A stretch of DNA of 64,000 nucleotides, from positions 434,001-498,000 of the forward strand of contig NZ_JAHLDU010000001.1 of the NCBI RefSeq assembly GCF_018861905.1, written 5' to 3'. The notes under the pieces were generated by a model. That model had not been told where the DNA came from and did no database searches. It was given only the letters and a program-made list of their open reading frames with translations. Below, in pieces: positions 39,004 to 54,559 of the stretch (within the stretch, counting starts at the first letter, position 1; every line of letters starts with the position of its first letter). The DNA is from Clostridium sp. DSM 17811 (GTDB taxonomy: Bacteria > Bacillota > Clostridia > Clostridiales > Clostridiaceae). The position numbers were made by a program, and so were the translations under genes.

Positions 39004-39008
39004 AAATT
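39004..39008. repeat. 5-bp target-site duplication, left copy (AAATT)
   Basis: AAATT directly abuts the TGTAGC terminus at 39009 and matches the copy at 54555-54559. Confidence 0.93.
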
Positions 39009-39159
39009 TGTAGCTTTATAATAAAGTTTGATCAGAATACTTCTCATGAATGGCTTAATTCCATAAAATCGATTTATTGTTTTTATAATAAAGATTGATC
39101 AAAACTACACAAGTAATTCATAACTATCTTTATATTTTTATAATAAAGTTTGATCAAAA
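39009..39159. repeat. transposon left end with three TnsB-type binding sites
   Basis: Copies of TTTATAATAAAGTTTGATCA (or with A for T at one position) start at 39015, 39082 and 39137, all in the same orientation, followed by AAAA or GAA. The wide, unequal spacing over 150 bases is the Tn7 left-end pattern. Confidence 0.92.
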
Positions 39160-39379
39160 TGGTTATTCAAATATCCTAACTTACTTGTTCAAATAATTCC
39201 TTTTACATCGAAGCGCCACGTGCTCCACATCCAATACTCTAATCCCTAAGTCTTATATCAGGTCTCCACCACTATTGCATTTTTTACAAACATAATGGGA
39301 AGTATCAATTTTTCCAAACTGATACTTATCAACATTTAAATGTGCCTCAAATTTATTGTAAGAAAATTTGATTTAGTTT
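39160..39379 (-). other. transposon left-end flank with a possible decayed coding remnant
   Basis: About 220 bases without an intact gene. On the minus strand a frame reads FEAHLNVDKYQFGKIDTSHY, then VCKKCNSGGDLI, a stop, and then DLGIRVLDVEHVALRCKR. The cysteine pairs suggest a small zinc-binding remnant, perhaps of an older cargo or insertion-sequence gene. It overlaps no known motif and is weak evidence. Confidence 0.22.
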
Positions 39380-40138
39380 TTAAATCATATCAACAATAAC
39401 TGCCGAATGATCTGATAAATTTCTTTCCCTGAATACGCTATCAATGTTTATTCCATTTAAACACTTTATTGCTGATGGTGACATCAATGCATAATCAATC
39501 CTTGTCGCCCCACTAAAAGTAGGTGTATCGTTAGGATAACGTCTTTCAACCCATGCATCTGTTGCACCACAACGTAATAGATTATCAAATCTTTCTCTAC
39601 GATCCGTTTTTGGATCATAAACATTCATATCACCAATATATATAAGTTTTTTATTTTTATTGGTTTCATAAAATATTATCATTTCATTCCAAAAATGTAT
39701 GTCATATGGAACATGTATCCCAATAATAACATAATCTAAGTAAATTATATGATTCCATCTTAGCTTTTTTTCTAAATTGGTTGGACTATTATTTGACTTC
39801 TTCCCTTTTTCCATTACAAATATTAAGGTAATACTTGAAGCCCTTTTTTTTTTATAATCGTTTTTCTCTTTATTATCTGGATACACCTCATAGTAAGATA
39901 AGTTTTCTAATTCAGTTATTACATAATTACCAGCTGGTGAATTCATATCAAATTCATGCATAATAATAATATCAGGCTGATAAGTTCCTATCCGTTCAAC
40001 AATATTATTTGCAACTGGTATTCGTTTAGAATCATTTCTAAAAGAATCTAACTTTAGATAATCATCTTTATATTCGTCATATCTTGGTTTTTCTTCTATC
40101 CCACCAAAGTTATTAACATTAAGACTTAATATGCGCAT
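39380..40138 (-). CDS. endonuclease/exonuclease/phosphatase-family protein (transposon cargo)
   Basis: A 252-residue protein with a complete EEP active site in order: LSLNVNNFGG at the N-terminus, IIIMHEFD (metal-binding glutamate) near residue 60, the histidine in VIIGIHVPYD near 145, YIGDMNVYD near 170, TRIDYALMS near 220, and LSDHSAVIVD at the C-terminus. EEP enzymes cleave phosphodiester or phosphate ester bonds in DNA, RNA or small molecules. It lies between the outer left end (39009) and an internal copy of the left end (40436), suggesting separate acquisition. A nuclease with a defence role is possible, not shown. Confidence 0.82.
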   Translation of the reverse strand: MRILSLNVNNFGGIEEKPRYDEYKDDYLKLDSFRNDSKRIPVANNIVERIGTYQPDIIIMHEFDMNSPAGNYVITELENLSYYEVYPDNKEKNDYKKKRASSITLIFVMEKGKKSNNSPTNLEKKLRWNHIIYLDYVIIGIHVPYDIHFWNEMIIFYETNKNKKLIYIGDMNVYDPKTDRRERFDNLLRCGATDAWVERRYPNDTPTFSGATRIDYALMSPSAIKCLNGINIDSVFRERNLSDHSAVIVDMI

Positions 40139-40197
40139 TACAATCTCCTCTGCAACTTCATTTGTCTATTTTTATTACATTACATAAACTATCATAT

Positions 40198-40440
40198 ACA
40201 AATAGTGTAGACAAAAAAACAATTGATTCTGTCGCCTAACGTTCCCATGACTCCTGATGTGTCCTCATTCTTTTAATTCTTAACGTCGTAAAACAGCACT
40301 CCGCGGACCACTCAAAACCTAGTTATTCCAACGGGCGTGTCGGGTGTCGCTGTGTTAGGCGCAGTTGTCTCTGAATTATAATTACTCAAATTCGGATAGA
40401 TCAATCTCTCTACTATTTTTCCATTCACAAATTAGTGTAG
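40198..40440. repeat. imperfect direct repeats flanking a GC-rich palindromic module
   Basis: ACAAATAGTGTAG (40198-40210) and ACAAATTAGTGTAG (40427-40440) differ by one base. They frame the palindrome at 40233-40361. The right copy runs into the internal left end. After the left copy, ACAAAAAAACAATTGATTCTG looks like a degraded version of the same TnsB-type site. Confidence 0.5.
40233..40361. repeat. attC-like palindromic element
   Basis: CGCCTAAC (40233-40240) and GTTAGGCG (40354-40361) are perfect complements. GCCTAAC and GTTAGGC fit the R-box consensus of integron attC sites (RYYYAAC and GTTRRRY). The 129-base span is within the attC size range. The interior (CCCATGAC, CGGGTGTCG and so on) is clearly more GC-rich than the transposon and can pair only partly. 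No integron integrase gene is present. It may be a lone recombination site or an unrelated structured element. Confidence 0.42.
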
Positions 40441-40464
40441 GTTTATAAAAAAATTTGATCAGAA
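40436..40464. repeat. internal second copy of the transposon left end
   Basis: The 29 bases starting TGTAGGTTTATAAAAAAATT match the outer left terminus at 26 of 29 positions, in the same orientation, including the terminal TGTAG and the site core TTTGATCAGAA. A weaker site-like stretch (AATATAATTTGATGGAAA) follows near 40525-40543. The terminus is not flanked by an exact AAATT, although AAATT occurs two bases further out at 40429. Confidence 0.75.
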
Positions 40465-40547
40465 CTTTATTGTGAAAGCTGATCTTACCTCAAAGTAAAA
40501 TAATAGTTTTTTAAATAGTTTTTTGAATATAATTTGATGGAAACTGT

Positions 40548-40892
40548 TTATATTTTATTAATATCGTTCTTTATATATTCTACTAATCTACCTTTAATCA
40601 ATATTGGATATTTTAATTTTTGAATATGTGCAGTGGAAAATTCCTTTGTCACAATTATTCCTTTAAGTTTATACTTTCCAATAAATTTACTATCAATTAA
40701 TTTATCTTTAATAAAATTGTTTGTTATTTTATCCATGTTTTTCTCAAAAGCTTCTAATTCCTTATCTAATTGATTCATATATTTTTTTGTTAACCTTTTA
40801 TGCATATTTTGCATATTATTATCTGTTTCAGGAAAAGCCAATCTCTTACATTCAATAAGATAAATTTTATTCTGTAATATAAGCTTGTCCAT
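40548..40892 (-). CDS. small protein with a PD-(D/E)xK-like motif (transposon cargo)
   Basis: A 114-residue protein whose first residues form a strand-turn-strand with D2 and E14-x-K16 (MDKLILQNKIYLIECKR), the minimal metal-binding core of restriction-type nucleases. A helix (KKYMNQLDKELEAFEKNMDKI) and a final GIIVTKE/YPIL strand region follow. The helix that usually precedes the core is missing, so this may be a truncated nuclease or one that works with a partner. The ATG follows the stop codon of the HNH gene with no gap (TAGATG), so it is translated with it. Confidence 0.55.
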   Translation of the reverse strand: MDKLILQNKIYLIECKRLAFPETDNNMQNMHKRLTKKYMNQLDKELEAFEKNMDKITNNFIKDKLIDSKFIGKYKLKGIIVTKEFSTAHIQKLKYPILIKGRLVEYIKNDINKI

Positions 40893-41534
40893 CTATATGG
40901 TTTTACAACTCGTTAAGTTTCTTTTTTGCTGTAATTTTATTAGTATAGTATTAAGTTTCTCAGCATGTGGTTTTCCTTTAAACTTTTCACACATACCAAG
41001 AATATTTATTAATAAAAAATCCAATCTACGAGATTGATACTCTAATTTGATCTTATCATAAAATGATTTTATAAACTTATCATTTTTATATTCTTCCGAA
41101 ATTTGAATACTATACATCTCATCTCTTAAAAATACATCTTTAATTATTTCTAAATCAGGATTTAAAATATCTATGTACTTATTCTCAATTAAAAAATTGC
41201 TTTTCGCCCTATTACAATCATAACATGCTAAAACCAAATTCTCTATTTTTCCCGCTACTTCTTTTGAATCAAATGATGATTCACATATGTAATGATCTAC
41301 TTCTAGAAGATTAGAACTAATATGATCAATTGCGTTCCCACAATAGCTACATTTATAATTATAAATTTTTACAAATTTCATTTTATATTTATTATCATTA
41401 TCTTTTATTTGATTGTAAATAATTTTTGCTCTAGGATGCTCTTGAGTTATTTCTTCATTTAACGCATTTTTCTTTTTATTGATATCTTTTAATTTGGGAC
41501 AATACAACGTATTTCTATAGTCATTCTCCATCAA
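40893..41534 (-). CDS. HNH endonuclease (transposon cargo)
   Basis: A 213-residue protein with an HNH fold framed by zinc cysteines: YKCSYCGNAID (C62, C65), LEVDHYICE (the D80-H81 catalytic pair) and LACYDCNRAKSNF (C104, C107, N108). Such enzymes nick or cut DNA in phage, intron and restriction contexts. The ~60-residue N-terminus and ~100-residue C-terminus are not recognised. The gene overlaps the receiver gene by 14 bases and touches the following small nuclease-like gene, placing it in a four-gene operon with a kinase-like ATPase. It is the likely effector of that operon. Confidence 0.88.
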   Translation of the reverse strand: MMENDYRNTLYCPKLKDINKKKNALNEEITQEHPRAKIIYNQIKDNDNKYKMKFVKIYNYKCSYCGNAIDHISSNLLEVDHYICESSFDSKEVAGKIENLVLACYDCNRAKSNFLIENKYIDILNPDLEIIKDVFLRDEMYSIQISEEYKNDKFIKSFYDKIKLEYQSRRLDFLLINILGMCEKFKGKPHAEKLNTILIKLQQKRNLTSCKTI

Positions 41535-42120
41535 TATCCCCCTGCAATTCCTTAAATGCTAGAATAATATCATCAATGTCAGTAGTTGTTAATTCATCAT
41601 ATTTTGCTGAACCTTCTAATGAATCCACAATTTTTTCAATTAAAACTTTGTCTATCCCATCATTAGCTATTAGCTTATCAGCTATATTTCGATAGATATT
41701 GATGTTTTGAATTGCAGCATCTAATACTTTTTTCAGCTTTTCAGCATAGTACTGTTGTGGATTATCTTGAAATCCCTCCCGATATTTTGAGATAGTACCG
41801 TAATCTTCTTCTAATTCATTTTGAGTTATAACTATAACCTCTATAAATGGAAATACTTTCTTTAAAATCATTTTAAACTCCTCACCTGAAAATTTTCCAG
41901 TAGTAACTCTGTCATTTTCAAATAGTTTGGAGTCAATTAAAATTATATTTGCTTCTTTAATAAGCTGATTACTAATCAAGCTATCGTAACCTTCTGCACT
42001 ATTAAAACAAACCTCTTCATATTCTTTCTCAAAATCCTTATGCCGATATGACTTTTTAAGATATCGCGATATGTTTGAATCTAACTCATCATCAACATAA
42101 ACAACTTTTATTTTATCCAT
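41521..42120 (-). CDS. receiver-domain protein (transposon cargo)
   Basis: A 199-residue protein. Residues 1-135 look like a response-regulator receiver: the acidic pair D10-D11 in VVYVDDELD, the phospho-acceptor D63 in IILIDSKLF, T99 in VIVITQN, and a lysine near residue 128-130. The tail (about 65 residues) is helical and has no DNA-binding domain, so output is probably by protein contact. Its start codon overlaps the stop codon of the kinase-like gene (TGATG), and its end overlaps the HNH gene. It may link the sensor to the nuclease. Confidence 0.8.
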   Translation of the reverse strand: MDKIKVVYVDDELDSNISRYLKKSYRHKDFEKEYEEVCFNSAEGYDSLISNQLIKEANIILIDSKLFENDRVTTGKFSGEEFKMILKKVFPFIEVIVITQNELEEDYGTISKYREGFQDNPQQYYAEKLKKVLDAAIQNINIYRNIADKLIANDGIDKVLIEKIVDSLEGSAKYDELTTTDIDDIILAFKELQGDIDGE

Positions 42121-44270
42121 CAGATTTTCCCTCCCATAGTAAATTGAATAGTAAATCCACCTAAACCCTCTATTTTTTTAATTTCTCCACCCGACATAAC
42201 AATGGTATTGTTAACAATCCACATACCAAGACCATGACCTTGCTTTCTTGAAGTCTCATGAACTTCAACAATTTTCATTGGATCATCAATATACTTTTTA
42301 TTTAATCCTTTTCCATCGTCCTTATATAAAAATTCTAAAAGACCATTGCTTAATGTTGCTTGAATAAAAATACAAAGATGGTTTCTATCATCATTTTGCT
42401 GAATACTATTCAATATTAAATTATCAAAAGTAACCTTTAGAACATCACTTGGTAGAACATAAAGTATTGATGATAATAAATCTAATTTTATCTCTAACCA
42501 TGTATAATCTCTCTCCCATACAGTTTTTATATCCTCTAGTAATTTTAATATATTGTGTTCTTCAGCAAAAAACTGACTTTTTTCAACTTCAGTAAGCATT
42601 GTATTCATAAAAGAAGTCATTTTAGAATTAACACGTCTATTTTTATCTAACAATTCTGGTATATTTGAATATGCATATCTAGTTTTTTCTCTCTCATTAA
42701 CTACATCCCATATTTCATACTCCTTCATAGCCTCCACAATATCATCACAGTTTTTAGCAATACTATTTCTATCATTATGCATCTCATGAGCAATAGAAGT
42801 TGCTTTTAAACCAGAAGTTGCTAGAACATTTAATATGCGAATATCGTATTTATATCGCTTTTCTGTAGAAAATATTTCTTTTTTAAAATCCGAATTTTCT
42901 TTTTTATACTCTTTAACTTCCGAAATGAATTCATTTACTTCATCTCTTGATAACGCTTTAATAATATTCGGATTTTTAATTACTTTATCTATTACTTTTT
43001 TATTAGTTGCAACATCAATATCATTTTTTTTATCAATTTTGCGTATGATATTTTGACGATATCTTTCAAATATACTAATTCCTATATCTACTATTTTTAT
43101 AAAAATTTTGTAATATATATTTTCATTTAACCCTTGTCTATTAGCTAAATCAGCTAGCATATAGTTTGTTTTCTTATCAATATCAACCCTTCCAGCTAAT
43201 TGATTTTCCCTTACCCTCCAAGCTCCAGTAGGATGAGTTGCTGCTGCTGGAGACAATCTGCTCCGTTTTCCTAATTCAAGCCAGTCTTTGGTTCCATTAT
43301 AGGACGAAATACTGAACGAATTTCGATAAAGTATTATTCCATTTTCGTATCTCCCCGAAAGAGTACTATGCTTATACAGAAATTTTTCAACGTCCTTTGT
43401 GGCTGACACGCTTAAGCTAAAGTAAAATTCTGTCGAAAAATCTCCTAATACCTCCAAAGCATCTTTTAATTCATCCTTTGACAATACTATATCTTTGTTA
43501 TGCTCTAATTCACTAAAAATGTCCACAGTATTTATATAATTTGATAGATTTATCCCTTCGCAATATTTATTAGCATCTGCCTTAAATTCATCTGAATTAA
43601 TTGTACATACCAACTTTTTATCCTTAGATGTATAATTTAAATTTATTTTGCTAGTACAATTACTGCCTATTTTAGGTTCTATAAAATATCTTTGTATTAT
43701 AATAGTCTCATTTTCAAAATAAATTTTAATTTGCATTAAGCTGTCATTATAAGTTCTTGATAAATACCCAGCTAACTTATCTATATTAGGCTTATTCCAT
43801 TTATCTCTTAATTTCTTTATAATTATTTTTGAACCATAAAAATCTAATAAACCATTTTCTTTTAAAGTACTTTCATTCCAATCTGTAACCCATAGTACAG
43901 ACTTATCCTTTTGATTATCTTTTTGAGAATATAATTCAACATTACCTCCTAATCGAGATAAAGCAAATCTACCAATTCCTTTTGAACCAGCAAGAATCCT
44001 CTTCTTATTGTTTTTATCTATAATTTCATAGTCTTTATCACTTTTGCCAATATGCATCCAATGCTGTCTAATATCCTCTACATTCATTCCATTGCCATTA
44101 TCCTTAATAATAAGCTCATCATTTTTAAATATAATATCTAATTCAGTAGCCCGTGCATCGAAAGCATTTTTTACAAGTTCAAGCATAGCAGATTCTTCAT
44201 TTGTAAAGTTCTGAGCCCCAAGCAACTCAGCAATGGTACTATCTTCAATTATATACTTTAGTTTTTCCAT
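42120..44270 (-). CDS. double-GHKL protein: Hsp90/MutL-like ATPase fused to a histidine-kinase-like module (transposon cargo)
   Basis: A 716-residue soluble protein with two ATP-binding GHKL domains. The N-terminal one has E31/N35 in LELVKNAFDAR, D57 in IKDNGNGM, and GSKGIGRFALSRLG near residue 95-108, as in Hsp90/MutL/MORC proteins. The C-terminal one has VTFDNLILNSIQQ, YKDDGKGLNKKY and GHGLGMWIVNNTIVMSGGEI (residues about 600-710). It is preceded by a kinase-type H-box, ATSIAHEMHNDRNSI, with a candidate phospho-histidine near residue 493. No membrane segment or usual sensor domain. It heads an operon with a receiver, an HNH nuclease and a small nuclease-like protein. A defence or DNA-damage sensing role is inferred. 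Confidence 0.85.
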   Translation of the reverse strand: MEKLKYIIEDSTIAELLGAQNFTNEESAMLELVKNAFDARATELDIIFKNDELIIKDNGNGMNVEDIRQHWMHIGKSDKDYEIIDKNNKKRILAGSKGIGRFALSRLGGNVELYSQKDNQKDKSVLWVTDWNESTLKENGLLDFYGSKIIIKKLRDKWNKPNIDKLAGYLSRTYNDSLMQIKIYFENETIIIQRYFIEPKIGSNCTSKINLNYTSKDKKLVCTINSDEFKADANKYCEGINLSNYINTVDIFSELEHNKDIVLSKDELKDALEVLGDFSTEFYFSLSVSATKDVEKFLYKHSTLSGRYENGIILYRNSFSISSYNGTKDWLELGKRSRLSPAAATHPTGAWRVRENQLAGRVDIDKKTNYMLADLANRQGLNENIYYKIFIKIVDIGISIFERYRQNIIRKIDKKNDIDVATNKKVIDKVIKNPNIIKALSRDEVNEFISEVKEYKKENSDFKKEIFSTEKRYKYDIRILNVLATSGLKATSIAHEMHNDRNSIAKNCDDIVEAMKEYEIWDVVNEREKTRYAYSNIPELLDKNRRVNSKMTSFMNTMLTEVEKSQFFAEEHNILKLLEDIKTVWERDYTWLEIKLDLLSSILYVLPSDVLKVTFDNLILNSIQQNDDRNHLCIFIQATLSNGLLEFLYKDDGKGLNKKYIDDPMKIVEVHETSRKQGHGLGMWIVNNTIVMSGGEIKKIEGLGGFTIQFTMGGKI

Positions 44271-44553
44271 ATACCTATCTCCTTAATTGATTTTCGTAAA
44301 TCAATATTTCTTATTTAGTCTCTAAGTAATATCGTCGCCAACTTATAGCATATCTTCTAATAAACATTCAAATATAAATTTGAATACATACAATACTATA
44401 TGCATCAGCTATATTTTTTTGAGTACATTAGTAAAATATTTATTTTCTAACTTTCTTTTATTCCCCTAATTTCAAATCTTTTTTAGGCACTATATATGCT
44501 TTAATATGGTATACACCTTATTGTTTTAGTTCTTACTTTAAACTCAATAACCA
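44271..44553. other. intergenic region between methyltransferase and kinase operon
   Basis: About 280 AT-rich bases. It presumably holds the promoter of the kinase-receiver-HNH operon. No terminator with a convincing stem was found, so read-through from the methyltransferase gene is possible. Confidence 0.35.
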
Positions 44554-45963
44554 TCATGAAACAAACCCTCTTCTTAAAAATTTAAATTTATTTATGTCAT
44601 CAGCAGTTATTCTAACTGATTTACCACTTGCTGGTGTTCCTATCTTTATTACATAATTAAAAAAATCTTCACTTTCTAAAATTCTTCTAGCTATATCCAA
44701 ATTATTATTTGCTTTAGCAATAATATATATTCCCGAATAAGGTACTTCTTTAGGTCCTATTAAATAAACATTTACTTTATTGGTTACTACTGTAGATATT
44801 AATAATTTCCTTCGGTTCATATTTTGAATTGCTTGACTTCTACCATATTCAAACCACTGTGCACTTTCATCTGCTTGTCTTTTATTTAATTCCTCTCTAT
44901 TCTGCACAAGGTATTGATATGTATTAGGATATTTTTTTTTATATTCTTCTTCCTGAAACTTTAATGCAGCGTTATTTCTTACCATATAAGGGAATATGAT
45001 ATATTCTTTATTATTTGAACTTTTATTTCTTGGACTTATGCCATTCCTAAGTGAACCCCGCTCTAAATTTAACCTTATTTTTGTTTCTGAATCAACTACA
45101 AACACCTTGTTTCTCTGAGTAGCGATAGTTATGGATGCTTTAAAAGAGTCACTAAACAATACTTTCTCTCCATTATCACTTAAATTTTGCTCTGTAAATA
45201 TCCATTTATCATTTAATATACTTTTATTTATATTATATGTAATATTCTTTGTAATATCGCTATATTGGAATTCATGCAAATTTCTATTTTTATGAAGCAC
45301 CATAACTGCTGAAGAAGTTAGAGCATTGCTAAATAATTTTTGATTAGGATAATCAAAAATTTCCACCAAATGCCCCACAATCATTTCTCGTAATTTTTTA
45401 GCAAACACATTTTTAAATATACTGTTTGGAATCAAGTAAACCATCTTACCACCATCTTTTAGATAGTTTATTGCATTTTCAATGAATGCATAACAATAAT
45501 CTGGTTTACCTAATTCACAAGTCTCAAAATTATTTTTAATAAAAGACCTTACTTTCTCTTCCAAATTCTTATATGAAATATAAGGTGGATTTCCGACAAC
45601 ATAATCAAAAGTAATATCAAATGGTTTTTTTAATACATCCTTATTATCTACCTTCCATTTGACATTTTTAATACCATATTTATTGGCAACTTGCTCTAGG
45701 TTTTTAACACATATTTTATATGTTTCCACTACTATCTCTGCTCCATAAATATCATTCTCTAATCCATGTTTTATTCTTGCATTGGAGTGTCCATTTCTTT
45801 TACCATCTAAAATATATCTTTCTACAACTAATTTTAAAATATGGCCTTCTCCACAAGAGTTTTCTATCACTTTTTTCCCATGTAAGTTTTCATTGTAATC
45901 TATCATGTTTAGCATTTCATTAGATATATTTTCAGATGTATATTGCTGACATCTCGAGTCCAT
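44554..45963 (-). CDS. DNA adenine-N6 methyltransferase, Eco57I/TaqI-like (transposon cargo)
   Basis: A 469-residue protein starting at MDSRCQQYTS, chosen because GGAGGT lies six bases before that ATG (45961-45963). AdoMet motif I is VIENSCGEGH at residues 32-41. The catalytic motif is VVGNPPYIS (NPPY at 125-128), followed by YCYAFIENAINYLKDGGKMVYLIP. The C-terminal half fits a TaqI-like target-recognition domain. It methylates adenine in a specific DNA site. There is no adjacent classical restriction enzyme. The nearest nuclease is the HNH protein in the operon 280 bases downstream, so it may be a solitary modifier or part of that system. Confidence 0.88.
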   Translation of the reverse strand: MDSRCQQYTSENISNEMLNMIDYNENLHGKKVIENSCGEGHILKLVVERYILDGKRNGHSNARIKHGLENDIYGAEIVVETYKICVKNLEQVANKYGIKNVKWKVDNKDVLKKPFDITFDYVVGNPPYISYKNLEEKVRSFIKNNFETCELGKPDYCYAFIENAINYLKDGGKMVYLIPNSIFKNVFAKKLREMIVGHLVEIFDYPNQKLFSNALTSSAVMVLHKNRNLHEFQYSDITKNITYNINKSILNDKWIFTEQNLSDNGEKVLFSDSFKASITIATQRNKVFVVDSETKIRLNLERGSLRNGISPRNKSSNNKEYIIFPYMVRNNAALKFQEEEYKKKYPNTYQYLVQNREELNKRQADESAQWFEYGRSQAIQNMNRRKLLISTVVTNKVNVYLIGPKEVPYSGIYIIAKANNNLDIARRILESEDFFNYVIKIGTPASGKSVRITADDINKFKFLRRGFVS

Positions 45964-46202
45964 TATTTTACCTCCAAGTATATTAATTAATATAATTATA
46001 TCATCAAAAATTACCATACTCAACGTCTATTTTCTTATCAGCTACAATGGTTACATGAGAATGTTAATAGAGATAGTGCCTAAAGGTTTCAACGTGGATC
46101 TGTAGGGATCTATACACTTTTTATCCATGTTTTTTTAAAAAAATTATATATAACTCCTTAGAAATAAAGAAATTTTAATCAAATAAAACCATTCTATGGC
46201 AG

Positions 46203-47723
46203 TTAATTCATCTTATCATACATGTATTTTTCTTTTTCATATTTATCCTTTTTACTATGTTTAATTCTCTGAACAACCACACCATTATCCTCTATTTTCT
46301 CTATTACTCTATTGCACCACTTCCCACTATCACCAACTAATGAAATTAAAACACTACTATAAATCTTCTTCCAACTTATCTGTTTGTTTGCTTTTAACAG
46401 CAACATTGACAGTGCTTTATCTTCTCTCTCCACCTCAATTAAACAATTTTCTCTACCGTCAACCATAATAATTTTTCCTATAGCATATCTCCTCCTAGTT
46501 ATCCTGTCATTCAATTTTGAAAACTTCTTACCTTTTGGAATCTGATTAATTATTATATCTATTGTTTTTATGGCTTCTCTTTTTTCTATTAATCTCAGCA
46601 TCTCTATAAATTCTTGAAGCTCACCCTTATCTTTAAATTCAGCCAAATTTTTAAACTCTAATCCCCTAATAATATCTTCTCCACCAGTATCTGCAGTGGT
46701 CCTAAGGTTGTCATTATGTAAAATATATGTTTTAGTGTTTTTATCTTCATTATTCCTTATAATTTTTCTGCCACTTTTCTTCTTATTTATTTTAGGAATC
46801 GTTTCATATTCATGATTAATCATAAATGTATTTATCTCGTCTGACTCTTTTGTCGATCCATCTGCACCTGGTTCCAGTTCTCTATCACTTTTTGTATTGT
46901 TACTAACAAATTTTCGTTTTTTAGTATCTTTAGAAGACATTGATTCTTCTAAGCTTGGATGATATACATTTATTTCTTCGGCATTAATTCTCTTCTTGTT
47001 AAGTGATAATATTTCTAATACCCTTACAAAACTATCTTTCTTTTCTACTCTTGCCCTTATACTAAATCTATCAAGTAAAAATTCATATTTTAACTCTTCT
47101 TTTTCCCATATCGCTTGACCAACACTATTAAACATTCGCAAAACTGATACATTTGTAAGTAACCAAGCTAAATGGTTTACCTTTTCACTTTTTAAAAGTT
47201 TTGATTCATATTCAGAGGTGAAATTTATATCGAGTTTTCTTTCTTTTATACCATAGGTAAAATAGTTTTCAAAAGTATCCATTTCTAGTATTCTATTTAG
47301 CATGAATTTATTAGGTGCTAAAACTACCCTTATAACCTCAATTATAGGAATAGTGTATAACACCCCCTCCTTTAAAAAGTTAAACGTCTTAGATTTTGTT
47401 TTCTCATTAAAGCCCGTACCCCAAATTGTCCAATCCCTTTCTTTATATTCAGCTTTTATTCCATTAAGATTTATATCCAGAACTTGTGGGTTACCAATTG
47501 TTGTACCATTATTTAAGTCACCATCAGTATAATATTTATCAACAGAAAGGAAATGGATACTAGCCCAATCCAACATAATTTTTCTTGTTGCTCTAACACC
47601 CTTAAAATATGCACATACCATCCACTTACTACCTTGTTTAAACGGTTCTCCAATCCATATTAGCTTTCCATTTTCTCCTTTTTCAAAAGGCCAATTTTTT
47701 ATGATTACTGCTTCTTCACTCAT
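46203..47723 (-). CDS. tnsE: transposition target-selector TnsE
   Basis: A 506-residue protein, fifth in the tns order and close to the 538 residues of Tn7 TnsE. It shares the Tn7 layout: an N-terminal domain with a YTIPIIEVIRVVL-type segment matching the IPQLELARSLF region, a charged central linker, and a C-terminal domain (AIKTIDIIINQIPKGKKFSK, AIGKIIMVDGRENCLIEVER) that aligns by eye with the FACRVLFEETLVLPKVG and EFVLLEVDAS regions of TnsE. In Tn7, TnsE directs insertion into replicating, conjugating DNA. Similarity is weak but order and pattern agree. Confidence 0.78.
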   Translation of the reverse strand: MSEEAVIIKNWPFEKGENGKLIWIGEPFKQGSKWMVCAYFKGVRATRKIMLDWASIHFLSVDKYYTDGDLNNGTTIGNPQVLDINLNGIKAEYKERDWTIWGTGFNEKTKSKTFNFLKEGVLYTIPIIEVIRVVLAPNKFMLNRILEMDTFENYFTYGIKERKLDINFTSEYESKLLKSEKVNHLAWLLTNVSVLRMFNSVGQAIWEKEELKYEFLLDRFSIRARVEKKDSFVRVLEILSLNKKRINAEEINVYHPSLEESMSSKDTKKRKFVSNNTKSDRELEPGADGSTKESDEINTFMINHEYETIPKINKKKSGRKIIRNNEDKNTKTYILHNDNLRTTADTGGEDIIRGLEFKNLAEFKDKGELQEFIEMLRLIEKREAIKTIDIIINQIPKGKKFSKLNDRITRRRYAIGKIIMVDGRENCLIEVEREDKALSMLLLKANKQISWKKIYSSVLISLVGDSGKWCNRVIEKIEDNGVVVQRIKHSKKDKYEKEKYMYDKMN

Positions 47724-47742
47724 ATATCCCCCTGTTATTTCA

Positions 47743-49605
47743 TTAATTAATACATGCCAATACTATATTTTTTATTTTTTCAAAAGCTTTATTTCTAATT
47801 CCAGCAATTCTTTGTATCTCCCATATTCTTATAGGTTCACCATTAGCCACTTTATTCTTAATTATCTTTTTACATCTTCTAATTTGAAACTCTTCAACAG
47901 TCTCAATTACCTTATTTAAATATTTTTCTGTATTAGGTAATTTATCAATATTTTTTTCTAAGGTTGTAAGTATTCCTAATCCTCTTCCAATATTGGATTT
48001 TGTTATTCTAATAAGTTCATCACTAACCAATAATCCTTCATATTTGTTTTTTACAATAATTAAAAGCTCACTATCTCTCTTATTCCAATCCACTATAGGT
48101 TGATATTTAGTTCTTTTAGTTGCTATTGGAAGTTTATCATAAAGCCATTTTTTATCCTTCCTATAAATAAAAATATATTCTTTTTTACACATACTTCTAA
48201 TTTCAGTTCTTGTTGCTGCAGTATTACTTTCCATATTGACTAATATACTATTTTTATAATCACTTAATTTATCAGTTTCAGCAGCAGGTTGCTTATCCTT
48301 TATGTTTCCCTTGTTATTTTGAAACATATTTGTTCCTAATATGGAATCAAACTTTAATATAGTCTTAGGGTCACAGTTCATAAACCTAGCTAATTCTCTA
48401 AGCCCATATTTTCTTTCTTTTAAATATGCTTTAAATTTATCTTCCCATACTATACCAAATTTTTTTGTTCTTCCTATCTTGTATCTATCTTCGCTTGATT
48501 TATCAGGCCCTTTCCTCGAATATACAAAGCCACAATCACAGCTAAAAGTACCTACCGGTAACCTTGTCTTATAATCATCTGTTATCTTCAAATTGTTCAC
48601 TAGATTCATTTTATAATGCTCTGATATTTTATTTAAACACGGCCATGGTCCTTTGCCGAAGGGTTTATAGTTGTTTCTTATGTCATTAAAAAACTCAGCA
48701 ATATCTCCCGATAAAAAATTTATCAATAATAAATGTCGCACTGGATGTACAGTTCTTTTGGAATTTCTTGTTATTACCCTAAGCCAGTTGTATTCATCAT
48801 CCTTGTCTATATTAGAGTCCATAATTTTTAAGAACTCTAACCCATAGCAATTTATAAATTCCTCATAAAACTCCCTTTGCTTTATTCTGTTACCTGAAGT
48901 TGTTAATCCCTTTTCACAAAGAATAGATTTATACTTTTTTAAAACAATTTTTCTATCTGTACTCATAAGATCGTTTTCTAATAAATAATACGCGTCACTT
49001 GCTAGTTTAAGCATTTTTTCATAATGCTTGATATCTTTTGGTCCATTACTTAAATCAAGTAAATCCTTTTCAAATCTAATAAATTCAAGTCTACTTACAT
49101 CAGTTTTTATTGTTTTGTATCTCCTTAATAGTTCTCCATGATGAACACATAAATAAATCCCTTGTAACTGATGTTCTCTATGAATATAAGCCTCTCCTTT
49201 CATTTGTATCTCATTTGTCGCACATATAGGGCAATAATAAATACCCTCGCGTTTACATACACTACCTGCTATAATTCCTATTTTTTGATAAATCCCACTA
49301 CAATCCCCATACTTAATTTCTTTAATGATTTCTTCTCTTCTTTTCATTGGAAGAAAAGGAATATAGTACGGAAAAATAGTATGTTCTTTTATCAAATATT
49401 CAGAGGTATAACTCCCTCCTATATTTTTTGCTAATGCATCAATTGGACTCCCTATCTCCAACGATGATATGATTGTCCTTTTTCCAAAGCACTCTTCAAT
49501 AGTGTCCTTAAAATCTATATTTCCAGTGTAAAAGTGATACCTAGAAATAGCAGAATAAATAAGTTCATCCTTATACGGATCAGTAAAAAAATGTATCATA
49601 TACAC
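47743..49605 (-). CDS. tnsD: attTn7-recognising protein TnsD (TniQ family)
   Basis: A 620-residue protein. Residues 1-160 are a TniQ domain (MYMIHFFTDPYKDELIYSAI and on) with zinc ligands at C125, C128, C153 and H156 (YYCPICATNE and YLCVHHGELL). The long C-terminal part contains further helix-turn-helix-like repeats (KYGLRELARFMNCDPKTILK). It recognises the end of glmS and recruits TnsABC. It is longer than Tn7 TnsD (508). The first codon is GTG, and the ATG two codons later at 49597-49599 is an alternative start. Confidence 0.93.
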   Translation of the reverse strand: MYMIHFFTDPYKDELIYSAISRYHFYTGNIDFKDTIEECFGKRTIISSLEIGSPIDALAKNIGGSYTSEYLIKEHTIFPYYIPFLPMKRREEIIKEIKYGDCSGIYQKIGIIAGSVCKREGIYYCPICATNEIQMKGEAYIHREHQLQGIYLCVHHGELLRRYKTIKTDVSRLEFIRFEKDLLDLSNGPKDIKHYEKMLKLASDAYYLLENDLMSTDRKIVLKKYKSILCEKGLTTSGNRIKQREFYEEFINCYGLEFLKIMDSNIDKDDEYNWLRVITRNSKRTVHPVRHLLLINFLSGDIAEFFNDIRNNYKPFGKGPWPCLNKISEHYKMNLVNNLKITDDYKTRLPVGTFSCDCGFVYSRKGPDKSSEDRYKIGRTKKFGIVWEDKFKAYLKERKYGLRELARFMNCDPKTILKFDSILGTNMFQNNKGNIKDKQPAAETDKLSDYKNSILVNMESNTAATRTEIRSMCKKEYIFIYRKDKKWLYDKLPIATKRTKYQPIVDWNKRDSELLIIVKNKYEGLLVSDELIRITKSNIGRGLGILTTLEKNIDKLPNTEKYLNKVIETVEEFQIRRCKKIIKNKVANGEPIRIWEIQRIAGIRNKAFEKIKNIVLACIN

Positions 49606-49655
49606 TCACCCTCCCTTATACATTTTCAACCGCCCATCCCCAATAATAATTAAAC

Positions 49656-51347
49656 TTATTTAGCTTTTAAAAATTCCTCAATTGGATTTTTAATATAACC
49701 ATTCTTTTTTAATACATCATAAGGATGCAATTTATCCTTCCTTGCTTTATCATATAAAGCTATTAACCCTTGATTTTTAGTTTCTATTTTTTCTGTAGTC
49801 GTCATATTGTGCTTTTTCTTTTCTTCTTGCTCTAAGGCCTTCTGTAACGCTACCAACTTTAAACTACTGTATTCCTCATTAACACTAGATTCATTAACTA
49901 CCCTGTTACATACTTTTTTAATTTCTTCATGATCTAAGTTTCTAAATAAGTCCATTGATATTAAATCGAAAATAAGATTCTCTGAAGTACTTCTTCTCAT
50001 TAATTCTATAGACATCTTTCTTTCCTTAAATGCTTCGCGAACTCTTCCACTAAGCTCCATATCACTTTTATAATTAATTGCTATATCATCCAAATTAATA
50101 GATATATCCTCATACTTCATTATTTCTAAAGCGTTATTATTTCTAAGCGCTTTAATCATCGGTTGAATCATGTATAAATCTTCTTTTGCTGTATTTCTTA
50201 TAATACCAACTGTAATTTTCTCTTTGCCTTGTGATAATGACCTTTCTTGAACAAGTATATACAAATTAACTGCAACTGCCGTAATGCCTTGGCATTCATC
50301 ATAAAATGCTTCTTTAATCTCCTTAGTTAGTTTGGTTTCTTCCTGTAAGCATTGAAAGTCCCACAAAGTTTCTAAAAAGAAATTCCATTCTTCACTATTT
50401 TTTAACATCCTATCCCACATTATAGAGCCCTCACTCCCTGCTCTTCTTGCTTGCCTAAAATTCCCTTTGAATAGCTGTTGTGCCTTACTTGTTCCTATTA
50501 AAACAGTAGGAATACCCACAGTATTACTTAATGTAACAAAGAAATTAAGCATATCTTCCATATCATTTTTAGCATTTAATAAATGTTGAATTTCATCAAT
50601 TACTAGAACACCTATGCCATACATACTTGCTAAGGTTGTCATGTGAAGCATCATTGTTGAAGTTATTCTATTAGCATAACCAAACTTCTCCAAATATCTA
50701 GTACCTAATAAATCATCAACTGCTTTAAAAAAACTTTTACATAGAGTTGCTAAGCTGCCATCGTAGGGACAATCTATCTTCAGCCATACTATTTGAGTTC
50801 TACTAAAATATTGCCCTTCATATTCCTCATGTTTTATCACTTGAGGATACATTAATAAAAGTCTTTCTATTGCTGTAGTTTTACCAATACCCGAAATCCC
50901 TATAACTGAGAGACTATCTGCTGTTGACCTGATATGACTCATTCTTTCATTGACAACCTTATCATTTGCTACCTCAGATCTTAGCTCATTTAATATTTTT
51001 AAGCGTTCTAAAAAGGCTTTATCTATTGGGTTTCTACCTAAATATCCCCGTCTTATTAGTGCTGATAATCTTCTTTCTAAAATGATATGAATTGGTAAAG
51101 GTTGAATAAAGTTTTTAGCTCTTTTTATAATGTGGTATCTTATATTTGTTGGTCTATTTCTATCCTCATCACTTATCTTTGGGAATAAAGTGAATTTATC
51201 TACCACATCATCCTCATTAAAGATATTAGGTAATGCTTCAATAAACGGATTACTTTTATACTCATCTAACTCTTGTTGTTTATAAACAGCATTCTCATAT
51301 TCACCTCTTAAAATAATTATTGATTCATTACTTTCCACGTCTTTCAT
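49656..51347 (-). CDS. tnsC: transposition regulator ATPase TnsC
   Basis: A 563-residue AAA+ ATPase, close to the 555 residues of Tn7 TnsC. Walker A GISGIGKTTAIE lies at residues 150-161, and Walker B GVLVIDEIQHLL near residue 250. The N-terminal ~130 residues match the region that contacts target selectors and the C-terminal ~120 the TnsA/TnsB-contacting part in Tn7. TnsC links the chosen target to the TnsAB transposase. The start overlaps tnsB by 20 bases. Confidence 0.95.
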   Translation of the reverse strand: MKDVESNESIIILRGEYENAVYKQQELDEYKSNPFIEALPNIFNEDDVVDKFTLFPKISDEDRNRPTNIRYHIIKRAKNFIQPLPIHIILERRLSALIRRGYLGRNPIDKAFLERLKILNELRSEVANDKVVNERMSHIRSTADSLSVIGISGIGKTTAIERLLLMYPQVIKHEEYEGQYFSRTQIVWLKIDCPYDGSLATLCKSFFKAVDDLLGTRYLEKFGYANRITSTMMLHMTTLASMYGIGVLVIDEIQHLLNAKNDMEDMLNFFVTLSNTVGIPTVLIGTSKAQQLFKGNFRQARRAGSEGSIMWDRMLKNSEEWNFFLETLWDFQCLQEETKLTKEIKEAFYDECQGITAVAVNLYILVQERSLSQGKEKITVGIIRNTAKEDLYMIQPMIKALRNNNALEIMKYEDISINLDDIAINYKSDMELSGRVREAFKERKMSIELMRRSTSENLIFDLISMDLFRNLDHEEIKKVCNRVVNESSVNEEYSSLKLVALQKALEQEEKKKHNMTTTEKIETKNQGLIALYDKARKDKLHPYDVLKKNGYIKNPIEEFLKAK

Positions 51348-53490
51348 CTCTTTTCTTTTTTAGCAATTCCATTATTCGATTATCACCTGGCGCTATTTTT
51401 TCAGCTGATTCAACATTTCTAATAGGTAATTCTATTACTTCAGCAACTTTATTGGCACTGTTTTTTTCTTCACCAATTTGAAAAGCTTCTATTTCTCTAT
51501 TCATAGCTTTTTCAACAATTCTGTTGTTTCTTATGCCTTTGAGTTGCCGATTTTTACTTTCTCCGAAATCTAATTCTTTTGATTTTGCTATTTCAGCTTC
51601 CTTAACTATTTTTTCTATTTCATTTTCTAAATTTATATTACTTTGATTCTGTTCTCTTAAATGTTTTTCTTTTAATTCAGTTGATAATTCTTGATTAAAA
51701 ATTATTTCTTCTAATAGGCAATCTTTATATTGATTACTTGCCTCTAATAAATAACATTCTTCATATCCTAACCCATTGTCATGTGGAATATATATATTAT
51801 TAACGTTTCTAGGATCATATACAATTTCAATGCTTCTAGCTTTAGGCTTTATAAACCATTGTTGACTAATAGCTTTATCAGAGTTATAAGATAACCCTTT
51901 AAATTTAATTCCTGCCCTTGAAACACTTGCTTTTCCCTTTGGAAGAATGTTTATTCTTAATACATCTCTATCAACTATCTTTAATCTACCTTTTTTGTTT
52001 TCAATTCCCCAATTCCAAAGCTGAATTGGTATAGGCAATATTTGACCTTCAAGCATTTCTTTTTCAACTGGATACTTTTCTATAAGGTGACTATTATGAT
52101 GCAATACAATATTTATATATACCCTTGTGAACTCTTCTATGGTTAAAGTTGAATCCAATCTATAATCTTTATCCCCTCTTTTTCTAAACTCCTTTTGTAT
52201 AGCGCCAGGAGTTTTATGTTTTAATTTAGTATTTAAGGTTCTAAAATTCCTTTCAACTATACCTTTTAAATCTCCACGATAAGGAGAAGTATTTTCTATT
52301 TTAACATTTAAATTATTAATTAAGTTTTCAGGAGAATATCCTTCAAATTCTCCTCTATCGGCTATTATAATCTCTGGCAAATGTTTTGAAGGCCATTGGT
52401 CTTCTGTTATTTCTATTCCATAATCCTTACAAAACTCAACCTTATCAGCTATCATATTATCTAATGCCATCATAGCTCCAAGCCAAGATGGTCCTTCTAA
52501 TCCAACATAAATCCCAGTAATTAATCTAGAATATACATCTATTATTGCGTATACAATTGGTCTACCTATTATTCTTCTTGTATTTAAAGAACTTACTAAA
52601 TACACATCAGCTATTGTTGCATCGATTTGGAATCTCGTTCCTGGTCCATCTGTTTCAATTGTGGAATTACTTAGTAATGGCCTATGTTTTAAATTAAATT
52701 CTTTGTCACTATCTCTTAGTACAATGTCCTTCTTAACGTCTTCAAACTTCTTAAACCAATAATAGAATTGATTATACTTAGGTATTCTCTCATTATCCCA
52801 AACCATATGTTTGATTTCATTATTTTCTCTATATATATCTGAATAGAAGTCCCTAAGCATAAGTGTGTATGTTTCTTTTAAAGATATCTTTTTATTATTT
52901 CTGTAATACTTATTTATAACAAATTGAAAGTGCTTTTTCACATCATCTGTTACGTTAATTCCTTCTATAGAATCTCCTAAATAATCCACTCTTGCAGGTC
53001 TTCCTACTTTCAAATCAGATAATTTTTTTTCTTTTCCTTTTCCTCCAGAGTTTATATAATCAGGTAGTAAAGCATTTTTATTCATCCCTCTTTGCCAATA
53101 TCTACTAAATACCTTTTTTACTTTTGTCAAACTTAACCCTGACCTATTAGCTATTTCCTTAAGTTTGTTTTCTCTATGATTCTTTTCTAAGAGTTCATAC
53201 TTGTTTGCTTCCCAAAAGGTTTCAATAAACTGCCAATCTGCATTTCTTTTATTAATTTGAAGCTCTGAGAGTTCCTTTTCGTTAATTATTCTTGAAAATG
53301 GGTCTTTTATAGCTATTAATTTTTCTCCCTCAATTTCTTCTTCAATGGTTTTTAATAACTCTTTTCTAGGCATTGATGTTACTGAGTCAATATTTACTAT
53401 GTAAACATAAAATTCAATAATGTTAATAATCCTTATTCTTTCTCCATTTTCGCCATCCACATATTTAAAAACCGAATTAATAGATATCAT
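51328..53490 (-). CDS. tnsB: DDE transposase TnsB
   Basis: A 720-residue transposase, close to the 702 of Tn7 TnsB. N-terminal helix-turn-helix regions (IANRSGLSLTKVKKVFSRYW) bind the end repeats. The rve-type catalytic core has aspartates in FQIDATIAD (about residue 288) and IIIADRGEFEG (about 377) and the glutamate in GIVERNFRTL (about 412). A C-terminal beta-barrel and a charged tail follow. The tail, KKKRDERRGK, is the likely TnsC-binding end. It overlaps tnsA by four bases (ATGA). Confidence 0.96.
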   Translation of the reverse strand: MISINSVFKYVDGENGERIRIINIIEFYVYIVNIDSVTSMPRKELLKTIEEEIEGEKLIAIKDPFSRIINEKELSELQINKRNADWQFIETFWEANKYELLEKNHRENKLKEIANRSGLSLTKVKKVFSRYWQRGMNKNALLPDYINSGGKGKEKKLSDLKVGRPARVDYLGDSIEGINVTDDVKKHFQFVINKYYRNNKKISLKETYTLMLRDFYSDIYRENNEIKHMVWDNERIPKYNQFYYWFKKFEDVKKDIVLRDSDKEFNLKHRPLLSNSTIETDGPGTRFQIDATIADVYLVSSLNTRRIIGRPIVYAIIDVYSRLITGIYVGLEGPSWLGAMMALDNMIADKVEFCKDYGIEITEDQWPSKHLPEIIIADRGEFEGYSPENLINNLNVKIENTSPYRGDLKGIVERNFRTLNTKLKHKTPGAIQKEFRKRGDKDYRLDSTLTIEEFTRVYINIVLHHNSHLIEKYPVEKEMLEGQILPIPIQLWNWGIENKKGRLKIVDRDVLRINILPKGKASVSRAGIKFKGLSYNSDKAISQQWFIKPKARSIEIVYDPRNVNNIYIPHDNGLGYEECYLLEASNQYKDCLLEEIIFNQELSTELKEKHLREQNQSNINLENEIEKIVKEAEIAKSKELDFGESKNRQLKGIRNNRIVEKAMNREIEAFQIGEEKNSANKVAEVIELPIRNVESAEKIAPGDNRIMELLKKKRDERRGK

Positions 53491-54326
53491 ATTGCTTCCA
53501 CCTTCTTAATCGATTTTTCCATTATGCTTATACTAGGTATGTTTTTATTAACATTAATTTTTTCTGTTATATCTATTTCAATCATTTTGTTTATTACTAG
53601 GTATTTAAATATACAAAGGCTGCTTCCTTTTTCTAAGCACATTTCATTGTCAAACGCTGTACACGTAGTCCTCATAGCGTTATGATTATCAATTATTCTT
53701 TTTATAAACTCGTATATTAAATCCTTCAATTCACTAGCTTCAATATCGTTAAAACTATCTATTTTGCCTATATCTTTATAACCATGAACTAAACTTATAT
53801 TGTTAGCTATGACCTTATCTATTTCTTCATCAGTAACTATCCCCCAATTAACACCTTTCTTTTCCCAATACTGTTTCTCAATCTCAAATTTTTCTAATAT
53901 TCTTTTACTCATAAGATCATCCTTGGATTTTATTGTTCTAGCTACTTCATGGAATTTGTTATTATAATTTATAGATACTAAAAAATCCGTAGTCATAACA
54001 ATAAACTCTCCTGTTTTAGGGTTTTTAGGATGCTCTATGCCTAACTCCTTAGCAATAATCATTGTATCTTCAATAGGAAGTAGTGGAAATTGCTCTCTAA
54101 TATCTTGAACTTTATCTGAGTATTCTAAAATATAGAAATAATTTCTTTCCATATCTGATAATAACTCATGTTGTCTTCCCGTTTTTATTCCTCTTATCCT
54201 ACTTGATCTACCTAAAGACGGCACATCTTGAATCTTAATCCAAGGTTTATATGTGTCTCCTTTTCCTGAACCTCTTCCTTCCTTAATCATTTTATCTATA
54301 TCTGAACTTCTTTTTCTTTTGGCCAT
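53487..54326 (-). CDS. tnsA: transposon endonuclease TnsA
   Basis: A 279-residue nuclease starting at MAKRKRSSDI, because GGAGGT precedes that ATG. A longer reading from 54362 would have no ribosome-binding site. The catalytic triad is E60 (SDMERNYFYILEY), D114 (VMTTDFLVSINY) and K133 (ARTIKSKDDL), nearly the same positions as E63, D114 and K132 of Tn7 TnsA. A C-terminal winged helix follows. TnsA cuts the 5' ends so the element moves by cut-and-paste. First gene of the tns operon, next to the right end. Confidence 0.95.
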   Translation of the reverse strand: MAKRKRSSDIDKMIKEGRGSGKGDTYKPWIKIQDVPSLGRSSRIRGIKTGRQHELLSDMERNYFYILEYSDKVQDIREQFPLLPIEDTMIIAKELGIEHPKNPKTGEFIVMTTDFLVSINYNNKFHEVARTIKSKDDLMSKRILEKFEIEKQYWEKKGVNWGIVTDEEIDKVIANNISLVHGYKDIGKIDSFNDIEASELKDLIYEFIKRIIDNHNAMRTTCTAFDNEMCLEKGSSLCIFKYLVINKMIEIDITEKINVNKNIPSISIMEKSIKKVEAI

Positions 54327-54468
54327 TGAATTCACCTCCATTTTCAAAATGAAAAACTGCACACTCTCACCTTAGATGAGAATGTGCAGTTTTTGTTACA
54401 CACTTATATTTGTTTAATTTTTCAATACTACATTCTCTTAAATATAGCATTCCCATCATAAATAATTT

Positions 54469-54554
54469 CGATTCAACTTTTTTATAAATGGTTTAACTTT
54501 TTTCTAAACGGTTAATCTTTTTTATAAACGGTGCAACTTTGTTATAAAGCTACA
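54469..54554. repeat. transposon right end with four abutting TnsB-type sites
   Basis: Read inward from 54554: TGTAGC, then TTTATAACAAAGTTGCACCG, TTTATAAAAAAGATTAACCG, TTTAGAAAAAAGTTAAACCA and TTTATAAAAAAGTTGAATCG, spaced about 20 bases apart. This dense array is the Tn7 right-end pattern and probably overlaps the tns promoter. Confidence 0.92.
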
Positions 54555-54559
54555 AAATT
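54555..54559. repeat. 5-bp target-site duplication, right copy (AAATT)
   Basis: AAATT directly abuts the ...CTACA terminus at 54554 and matches 39004-39008. Confidence 0.93.

Follow-up and report, generated by a model that had tools for sequence, protein, structure and literature searches.

A candidate mobile restriction–modification-like operon with a predicted His-Asp phosphorelay in Clostridium sp. DSM 17811

We analysed a 64,000-nt window of Clostridium sp. DSM 17811 (contig NZ_JAHLDU010000001.1; positions below are in window numbering) and identified four minus-strand genes, encoding an Eco57I-type N6-adenine DNA methyltransferase, a soluble dual-GHKL histidine kinase, a stand-alone receiver protein and an HNH nuclease, whose linkage is conserved across distant bacteria. 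We consider it fairly probable that they constitute a mobile restriction–modification (R-M)-like defence operon in which the nuclease is controlled by a His-Asp phosphorelay. The methyltransferase gene (44554-45963; component 1, putatively for self-marking and probably the specificity subunit) lies 283 bp upstream of the kinase gene (42120-44270, 716 amino acids (aa); component 2, predicted sensor and kinase), which is followed by the genes of the receiver (41521-42120, 199 aa; component 3, predicted phospho-switch) and of the HNH nuclease (40893-41531, ~212 aa from its ATG; component 4, predicted effector). The kinase and receiver genes meet at TGATG, the receiver and HNH genes share a short overlap, and the HNH gene meets a 114-aa open reading frame (ORF; 40548-40892, minus strand) at TAGATG.

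An earlier note on this DNA had proposed a four-gene operon made of the kinase, the receiver, the HNH nuclease and, as a small PD-(D/E)xK-like protein, the 114-aa ORF. Its ORFs and junctions were found as described, whereas its fourth gene lies outside the range of 40893 to 44270 that it gave for the operon and outside the conserved system. It overlooked the conserved fourth gene, the Eco57I-type N6-adenine methyltransferase upstream of the kinase, and it is this gene that makes the system R-M-like. The receiver/HNH overlap also needs correction from 14 bp to, more likely, 11 bp: the HNH ORF runs from a TTG (40893-41534), and an ATG at 41531 is the more likely start, with L035, L036 and several other relatives arranged alike. 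For the methyltransferase the mechanical start is a TTG at 46023 (44554-46023, 489 aa) and the likely one an ATG at 45963, giving ~469 aa. Both ATG codons, chosen from the sequence, agree with the overlaps and with the lengths of the relatives.

Evidence for the four-gene unit comes from a scan of genome_contigs (one genome per species, 84,980 species) with a four-row kinase alignment. It returned 541 relatives, and we retained the best 80; counts out of 81 refer to the window plus these 80 and, since selection was by kinase similarity, hold for this subfamily. With gene profiles based on the window together with three loci from plasmids, all four genes were found no more than 2.5 kb apart on the kinase strand in 74 of 81 loci, mostly abutting or overlapping. 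This figure counts matches of any length (one or two genes are split in L059, L060 and L099, and the methyltransferase is partial in L108); each of the four is full length in 70 of 81. Three loci (L078, L079 and L094) contain kinase, receiver and HNH only and four (L047, L056, L058 and L061) have other content. Contig ends cut five of these seven exceptions (L079, L094, L047, L056 and L058), and the L058 and L061 loci look broken. The 80 loci originate from Bacillota (48), Bacteroidota (18), Melainabacteria (5), Pseudomonadota (2), Spirochaetota (2) and Campylobacterota (2), and three (including one Saccharibacteria genome) have no phylum listed, so that at least six named phyla are represented overall. 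Judged without a formal null model, such linkage is not plausibly due to chance. The tie of a soluble kinase/receiver pair to an HNH nuclease, as claimed earlier, is thereby borne out, and a check for conserved co-occurrence suggested at the same time links kinase, receiver and HNH but not the 114-aa ORF, the conserved fourth partner being the methyltransferase.

The order of the genes is either methyltransferase-kinase-receiver-HNH or kinase-receiver-HNH-methyltransferase, and on a FastTree kinase tree the methyltransferase changes its position at least four times. Among five plasmid loci compared, those of Bacteroides (L002), Salipiger (L003) and Deinococcus (L006) contain all four genes, and a Stenotrophomonas plasmid (L004) contains the kinase alone, adjoining a cytosine methylase. 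In a search of 398 genomes of the phylum to which the window belongs, with two candidates scored per genome, the whole kinase was matched at E<=1e-20 only in the window's own genome, and another 18 genomes matched one part of it only; the system therefore looks rare though widespread.

The kinase comprises an N-terminal MORC/Hsp90-like ATPase with a transducer, a long helix carrying H495 and a C-terminal kinase ATPase. Pfam identifies HATPase_c_3 at residues 26-126 (3.1e-18) and HATPase_c at residues 611-711 (4.7e-14), and phmmer matches include YycG, HtpG and SrrB. An AlphaFold2 model (predicted local distance difference test, pLDDT, 82; predicted template modelling score 0.58; 34 sequences) was matched by Foldseek to Hsp90/TRAP1 and MORC2 (E 1e-12 to 4e-11, ~420-540 columns) and to YycG. 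The N-terminal end resembles Hsp90 and MORC2, and the C-terminal end YycG. HATPase_c_3 and Foldseek thus both point to the GHKL plus S5-like transducer module of MORC and paraMORC proteins. Residues were counted in alignments of long-enough proteins, with plasmid loci included and near-identical loci kept. In the N-terminal ATP site E31 and N35 are present in 78/80 kinases, D57 in 79/80 and G95, K97, G98, G100 and R101 in 80/80. The predicted phospho-accepting histidine, placed at about residue 493 by the earlier note, is H495 in the H-box (codon at 42786-42788, minus strand; 80/80), and in the C-terminal site N617, N621, G653, G678, G680 and G682 are present in 80/80 and D651 in 72/80. None of 80 kinases has a membrane-like segment, as maxima of 19-residue Kyte-Doolittle windows are all below 1.9 (highest 1.85; 1.29 in the window).

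The receiver had no Pfam match above the cut-off. Its AlphaFold2 model (mean pLDDT 83.6, 56 sequences) has the strand order of a receiver, with D10 and D63 at strand ends, and nine of the first 13 PDB rows returned by Foldseek have titles that name a response regulator (best E 3.2e-4, probability 1.00), the other rows being a dual-sensor histidine kinase (twice), a lysine decarboxylase and an aminomutase. The predicted phospho-accepting D63 (codon at 41932-41934, minus strand), already singled out in the earlier note, is present in 82/82 receivers, D10 in 80/82 and T99 in 79/82. A phospho-accepting histidine with N, G1 and G2 boxes on one side, and the aspartate, acidic residue and threonine of a receiver on the other, are the features expected of a two-component pair; the residues of both ATP sites and of the His-Asp relay are thus kept. 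No DNA-binding domain was recognised in the receiver by Pfam, AlphaFold2 or Foldseek, and together with the hydropathy of the kinases this agrees with the earlier view of a pair with neither a membrane sensor nor a DNA-binding output. Each of 22 isolate genomes with the system (22/22) contains exactly one strong receiver homologue (E<=1.2e-36; next best 2.4e-10), which must therefore be the copy in the locus; the weaker matches (E>=2.4e-10, frames of 159-582 aa) are presumably ordinary response regulators.

The fourth protein carries an HNH motif (Pfam 1.9e-8), and C62, H81, C104, N108 and K111 (numbered from the TTG ORF) are present in 81/81 proteins, N99 in 80/81 and C65 and C107 in 75/81. 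A sequence search of the PDB returned only annexins at E>=0.03, taken as chance.

On the basis of these features we propose that the N6-adenine methyltransferase would mark the host genome as self and, most likely, would supply target recognition for the whole system. The N-terminal MORC/Hsp90-like module of the kinase may act as an ATP-driven clamp that reads non-self DNA, either as unmethylated sites or as methyltransferase stalled at them. Closure of the clamp would trigger the C-terminal kinase and lead to phosphorylation of H495, the phosphate would pass from H495 to D63 of the receiver, and the phosphorylated receiver would release or activate the HNH nuclease. We infer phosphotransfer, a contact between receiver and HNH, sensing of DNA or its methylation, specificity given by the methyltransferase and anti-phage activity.

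The place of the HNH nuclease as output can be judged from a wider family in viral contigs. A scan of these with the window kinase alone gave two stretches and no relative; repeated with a 34-kinase alignment, it gave 101 relatives, 80 of which were used. Kinase, receiver and HNH occur together in 14 of these 80 loci, with a methyltransferase match in 11 of the 14. In 65 other kinase loci a gene lies directly downstream in 60, and 54 of these 60 genes fall into seven families, all of which begin with a part that aligns with the receiver family of the window (hhalign probability 70-98%). Methyltransferases were counted with profiles made from genes upstream of the kinases in these same loci, a single representative of each profile having been confirmed by Pfam as C5, N6 or N4/N6. 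By this count, 51 of the 54 seven-family loci, and 67 of 79 viral-contig kinase loci overall, have a DNA methyltransferase no more than 3.5 kb away on either strand. The C-terminal parts of families c1 (L169 and others), c4 (L202 and others) and c6 (L161 and others) and of the Response_reg_2 proteins of a published sister class (L126-L133) may represent one shared, unnamed domain, as the pairs c1-c6, c4-c6, c4-Response_reg_2 and c6-Response_reg_2 align at 64-95%; by eye a P-x-C-D-like motif is visible in them, and the domain is a possible effector domain. Those of c2 and c7 possibly share another common domain (97%). Judging from these alignments, the receiver appears to be a common adaptor, and the HNH protein of the window appears to fill the slot held elsewhere by a fused effector, which supports it as the regulated output.

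The same comparison raises the question of what the HNH nuclease would cut. In family c3 (11 loci: L168, L172, L173, L174, L179, L184, L191, L195, L199, L204 and L216) the receiver, directly downstream of a dual-GHKL kinase, is fused to a HEPN-like end in which R-N-x-x-x-H is present in 11/11 (Pfam HEPN 7e-4, below the cut-off, one representative scanned), and a C5 methyltransferase lies within 3.5 kb in 10/11. HEPN domains are RNases, and c3 is in itself a candidate methylation-linked RNase system. The HNH nuclease might likewise cut RNA, for instance tRNA, with non-self DNA being read by its methylation and the phosphorelay setting off an abortive response. In PADLOC the HNH protein matches PtuB of Septu best (6e-11), and Septu has been reported to cleave tRNA-Tyr (PMC13096335). 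However, the similarity to PtuB is partial, the HNH fold is common to many DNases, and PDC-M01B (1.3e-7) and IscB (3e-7) were matched as well. We regard RNA as the target as rather unlikely.

The second question is where sequence specificity resides. The methyltransferase is assigned to the Eco57I type by Pfam (7.5e-20), NPPY is present in 76/76, and its PDB matches are adenine-specific methyltransferases, 7lni (7e-16) and 8c45 (1.5e-4), which we take to be CamA and PglX, respectively. Pairwise distances were correlated over 69 loci, i.e. the 73 with four full-length genes (plasmid loci L002, L003 and L006 included) minus four near-copies. The core proteins diverge in step, with r of 0.94 between the C-terminal part of the kinase and the receiver, 0.93 between its N-terminal part and the receiver, 0.86-0.90 between kinase and HNH and 0.86 between receiver and HNH. 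The methyltransferase, by comparison, correlates with any core protein at only 0.25-0.32 (0.25 with HNH), and within the clade of the window (21 loci) r is 0.77-0.87 for the core versus 0.36-0.50 for the methyltransferase. The methyltransferases fall into seven classes, needing at least 17 changes on the FastTree kinase tree, in which the long branches L003, L006, L083 and L088 call for caution. The clearest exchange is between Clostridium zeae (L040) and Acetobacterium paludosum (L042), which are 79% identical in the kinase, 83% in the receiver and 72% in HNH and only 19% in methyltransferases occupying the same operon position; nothing close to the L040-type methyltransferase is present in the L042 genome (best 28%, partial). 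In sliding windows along this pair no core segment fell together with the methyltransferase (minima 50% for kinase, 73% for receiver and 60% for HNH); the minima for L040 and L055, with methyltransferases 62% identical, are 40, 57 and 47%. A swap between L085 and L098, diverged throughout (minima 10, 17 and 33%), decides nothing. Since kinase, receiver and HNH vary together and the methyltransferase appears to be exchanged between otherwise conserved cores, the core probably lacks an intrinsic sequence specificity and relies on that of the methyltransferase. By analogy, in Type I and BREX systems the methyltransferase supplies specificity to the system.

These results bear directly on the more conventional explanation, in which the operon is a Type II R-M system: HNH would be an endonuclease with its own recognition sequence, and kinase and receiver would do no more than adjust it. 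The methyltransferase does adjoin the nuclease in 74 of 81 loci, and control of R-M has been proposed for the HEF_HK pair (PMC8011034). However, in 27 locus pairs (many sharing one locus, so not 27 events) the methyltransferases are 16-20% identical at 40-72% identity of HNH, and the core of L040 and L042 has no divergent recognition segment. An endonuclease of matched specificity would need to follow such exchanges, unless the methyltransferases in question recognise a common target. This argues against the Type II explanation, and we consider it improbable.

The kinase and receiver could also form a cytoplasmic two-component regulator of methyltransferase or cargo expression, an epigenetic role with no part in defence. 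Intact kinase and receiver residues and the lack of a membrane-like segment by hydropathy would suit it, but the receiver is without a recognised DNA-binding domain, the linked output is a nuclease, and the sister families fuse the receiver directly to other domains; such a role seems very improbable.

A four-gene system with a second, PD-(D/E)xK-like nuclease, independent of the methyltransferase, draws on the TAGATG junction in the window, an ExK-like motif and the weak similarity of the small protein to a YqaJ-like one, yet is hardly credible, as the 114-aa ORF is absent from the other 85 loci and the conserved partner is the methyltransferase. The ORF has no homologue in the plasmids either, and it was dropped as a component. 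Besides itself it has one weak match in 291 genomes (E 2e-4, residues 12-101), to a 313-aa YqaJ/lambda-exonuclease-like ORF (L148, 880-1821) preceding a RecT-like ORF, both named by reading their sequences. It is perhaps a remnant of a YqaJ/lambda-exonuclease-type protein.

Several observations weigh against our proposal of a phosphorelay-controlled R-M-like system. Its function is predicted for every member. The core of L078 is intact and has no methyltransferase match in 7 kb upstream and 2.6 kb downstream, and the Rhizobium plasmid locus (L005) has receiver and HNH, a split kinase and no methyltransferase match. (The next ORF downstream in L078 is on the opposite strand.) The structural matches have low TM-scores, ~0.3 by query and 0.3-0.45 by target for the kinase and ~0.4 by query (0.5-0.6 by target) for the receiver, and the DHp region around H495 is of low confidence (block means 52-73, residues 480-570). 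Neighbouring genes that are inherited together will also diverge in a correlated way, so that only the contrast with the methyltransferase is informative, and unlike methyltransferases could share one target site, which would leave the core with a fixed specificity. Enrichment of defence genes around the system was not clear: 21 PADLOC families (E<=1e-20) were matched from 102 neighbours versus 8 from 60 controls, a crude comparison that counts families and not distinct proteins. The neighbours, at least 150 aa long and within 3.5 kb, came from 22 isolate loci and were drawn from 676 distinct neighbours in all; the controls were taken from 7 genomes (10 stretches). Five of the 102 neighbours matched Phage_integrase, a family that does not appear in the 25 control families listed out of 71.

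If the proposal holds more widely, we may tentatively be looking at a hitherto undescribed superfamily of methylation-linked immune systems, an idea we hold to be somewhat short of probable. In it a swappable methyltransferase (N6, C5 or N4/N6), a MORC-like clamp-kinase and a receiver would lead to varied effectors, the reading of self and non-self would be uncoupled from killing, and the output might be RNA cleavage or cell suicide in place of DNA restriction; the superfamily would then be a signalling-based alternative to the known R-M types. A restriction enzyme usually finds its target site by itself, and this ties a given nuclease to a given methyltransferase. A conserved core with interchangeable methyltransferases suggests that here the decision to cut is made by signal transduction. 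Two-component signalling, MORC/Hsp90-type ATPases and epigenetic self-marking would be joined in one defence logic, which would suggest a role for the bacterial MORC-like kinases found beside R-M genes. The recurrence of this layout in viral contigs, where the effectors are HEPN-like or unknown, suggests that many effectors await characterisation.

In the window the operon is carried by a Tn7-like transposon of 15,546 bp (39009-54554), in keeping with its description as transposon cargo in the earlier note. The element is inserted 20 bp from the glmS stop, GlmS domains being found in the adjoining gene; this is the classical attTn7 position. A 5-bp duplication, AAATT, can be read directly at 39004-39008 and 54555-54559, and the ends are inverted TGTAGCTTTATAATAAAG-like repeats, of which internal copies are also present. 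TnsA, TnsD and TnsE domains were found, the place of TnsB is taken by a Mu-transposase-C protein and that of TnsC by a TniB/AAA protein. With tnsA-E type genes, both ends and the duplication readable, the element is complete-looking. Further cargo comprises, besides the 114-aa ORF, an endonuclease/exonuclease/phosphatase-family gene (39380-40138), which has no homologue among the other 85 loci. Between these two, inside the element, a second left-end-like repeat with TGTAG is located at 40434-40465 (81% to the terminal repeat); it looks like the end of a former, shorter element.

A fifth conserved gene was rejected, since none of the families of neighbouring genes keeps a constant position across 86 loci. 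The largest of the first 22 neighbour families, each named by reading one sequence, are tyrosine recombinases (10), ABC-type ATPases (9) and response regulators (7), followed by serine recombinases (5), HsdS-like (4) and HsdR-like (4) proteins. By the same reading, the system is accompanied by HsdS-like Type I specificity genes in L109, L113, L052 and L061. Two copies of the system (L041 and L043), with kinases 91% identical, are present on two contigs of one metagenome-assembled genome (UBA7185). A related locus on a Hymenobacter plasmid (L117, 1-10609) consists of a kinase, two unknown genes and an N-6 methylase, and adjoins a DNA methyltransferase and a Piwi-domain gene.

The earlier note did not recognise this combination in any known system. 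PADLOC (2023) indeed has no match to the receiver and no model spanning the length of the kinase, the main match of which is a restriction-enzyme model at residues 24-123 only (1.6e-13); however, a sister class has been published. The HEF_HK/Response_reg_2 pair (Bellieny-Rabelo et al. 2021, PMC8011034) is likewise described as a soluble kinase with HATPase_c_3, H-box and HATPase_c adjoining a receiver with a conserved aspartate, is enriched near R-M genes and is proposed to control R-M. The kinases are homologous, as the window-family profile matches the kinase beside 8/8 Response_reg_2 proteins (E 3e-48 to 2e-62; genes found in 299 genomes from the phylum to which a Pseudomonas locus belongs). 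The window-family receiver, HNH and methyltransferase profiles had no match in these eight loci. At E<=0.1, PF19191 (HEF_HK) did not match the kinases of the window, L002, L003 and L006, nor did PF19192 match the receivers of the window and three relatives; PF19192 also found 0/10 genomes with the system, a search with no positive control, the same model having found 8 of 299 genomes elsewhere. As neither Pfam model matched, membership in this class was rejected. Compared as whole-protein profiles the two receivers align with a probability of 4%, and the window-type receiver and the Response_reg_2 receiver parts are linked only indirectly, through c1, c3 and c4. The ORFs of Response_reg_2 proteins are 567-721 aa long and include a large additional part, unlike the 199-aa receiver of the window, and the published HEF_HK neighbours are mostly C5 methylases, in contrast to the Eco57I-type N6 enzyme and separate HNH found here.

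ParaMORC ATPases in R-M operons share the N-terminal GHKL and S5-like module and the position beside methyltransferases, paraMORC1 co-occurring with HNH (Iyer et al. 2008, PMC2292703). The part of that paper available never uses "receiver" or "response regulator", and the ATPase of the window differs in being fused to a histidine kinase, with the nuclease separate. A BbrUII/HgiDII model of NCBIfam matches kinase residues 15-259 at 7e-19, far below its cut-off. The comparison with MORC and Detocs suggested in the earlier note thus holds for the MORC module, whereas the gene content of Detocs differs. Detocs has three genes, its effector being a PNP that cleaves ATP. It is a defensive two-component system with kinase/receiver signalling and an enzymatic output (PMC11249213), and the passage available mentions no methyltransferase or HNH. 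Septu shares the relationship of HNH to PtuB, but there is no PtuA-type ATPase in the operon and the GHKL kinase is in its place; ABC-type ATPases near 9/86 loci (named from one sequence) are scattered outside the operon at 0.4-5.2 kb. BREX and Type I systems share a methyltransferase with its own target recognition that could serve both marking and restriction, the window enzyme having the 8c45 match (1.5e-4); no other BREX or Type I gene is in the conserved operon, PglZ and BrxC not having been searched by name. Classical Type II R-M has the same pairing of a methyltransferase with a nuclease gene; here the two do not change together, which would speak against matched specificity only if the target motifs differ. 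Finally, histidine kinase-like ATPase and receiver domains are named in a figure legend of DefensePredictor (PMC13092281) on eight systems that were predicted and not tested, a likeness that extends to the domain names in the legend. No paper describing the set of N6-methyltransferase, kinase, receiver and HNH was found in the literature searched, preprints, REBASE and most subscription journals being outside its scope. The link of a kinase/receiver pair to R-M is already published for the sister class; the type described here is a conserved set of four genes that crosses phyla, with a predicted function in defence.

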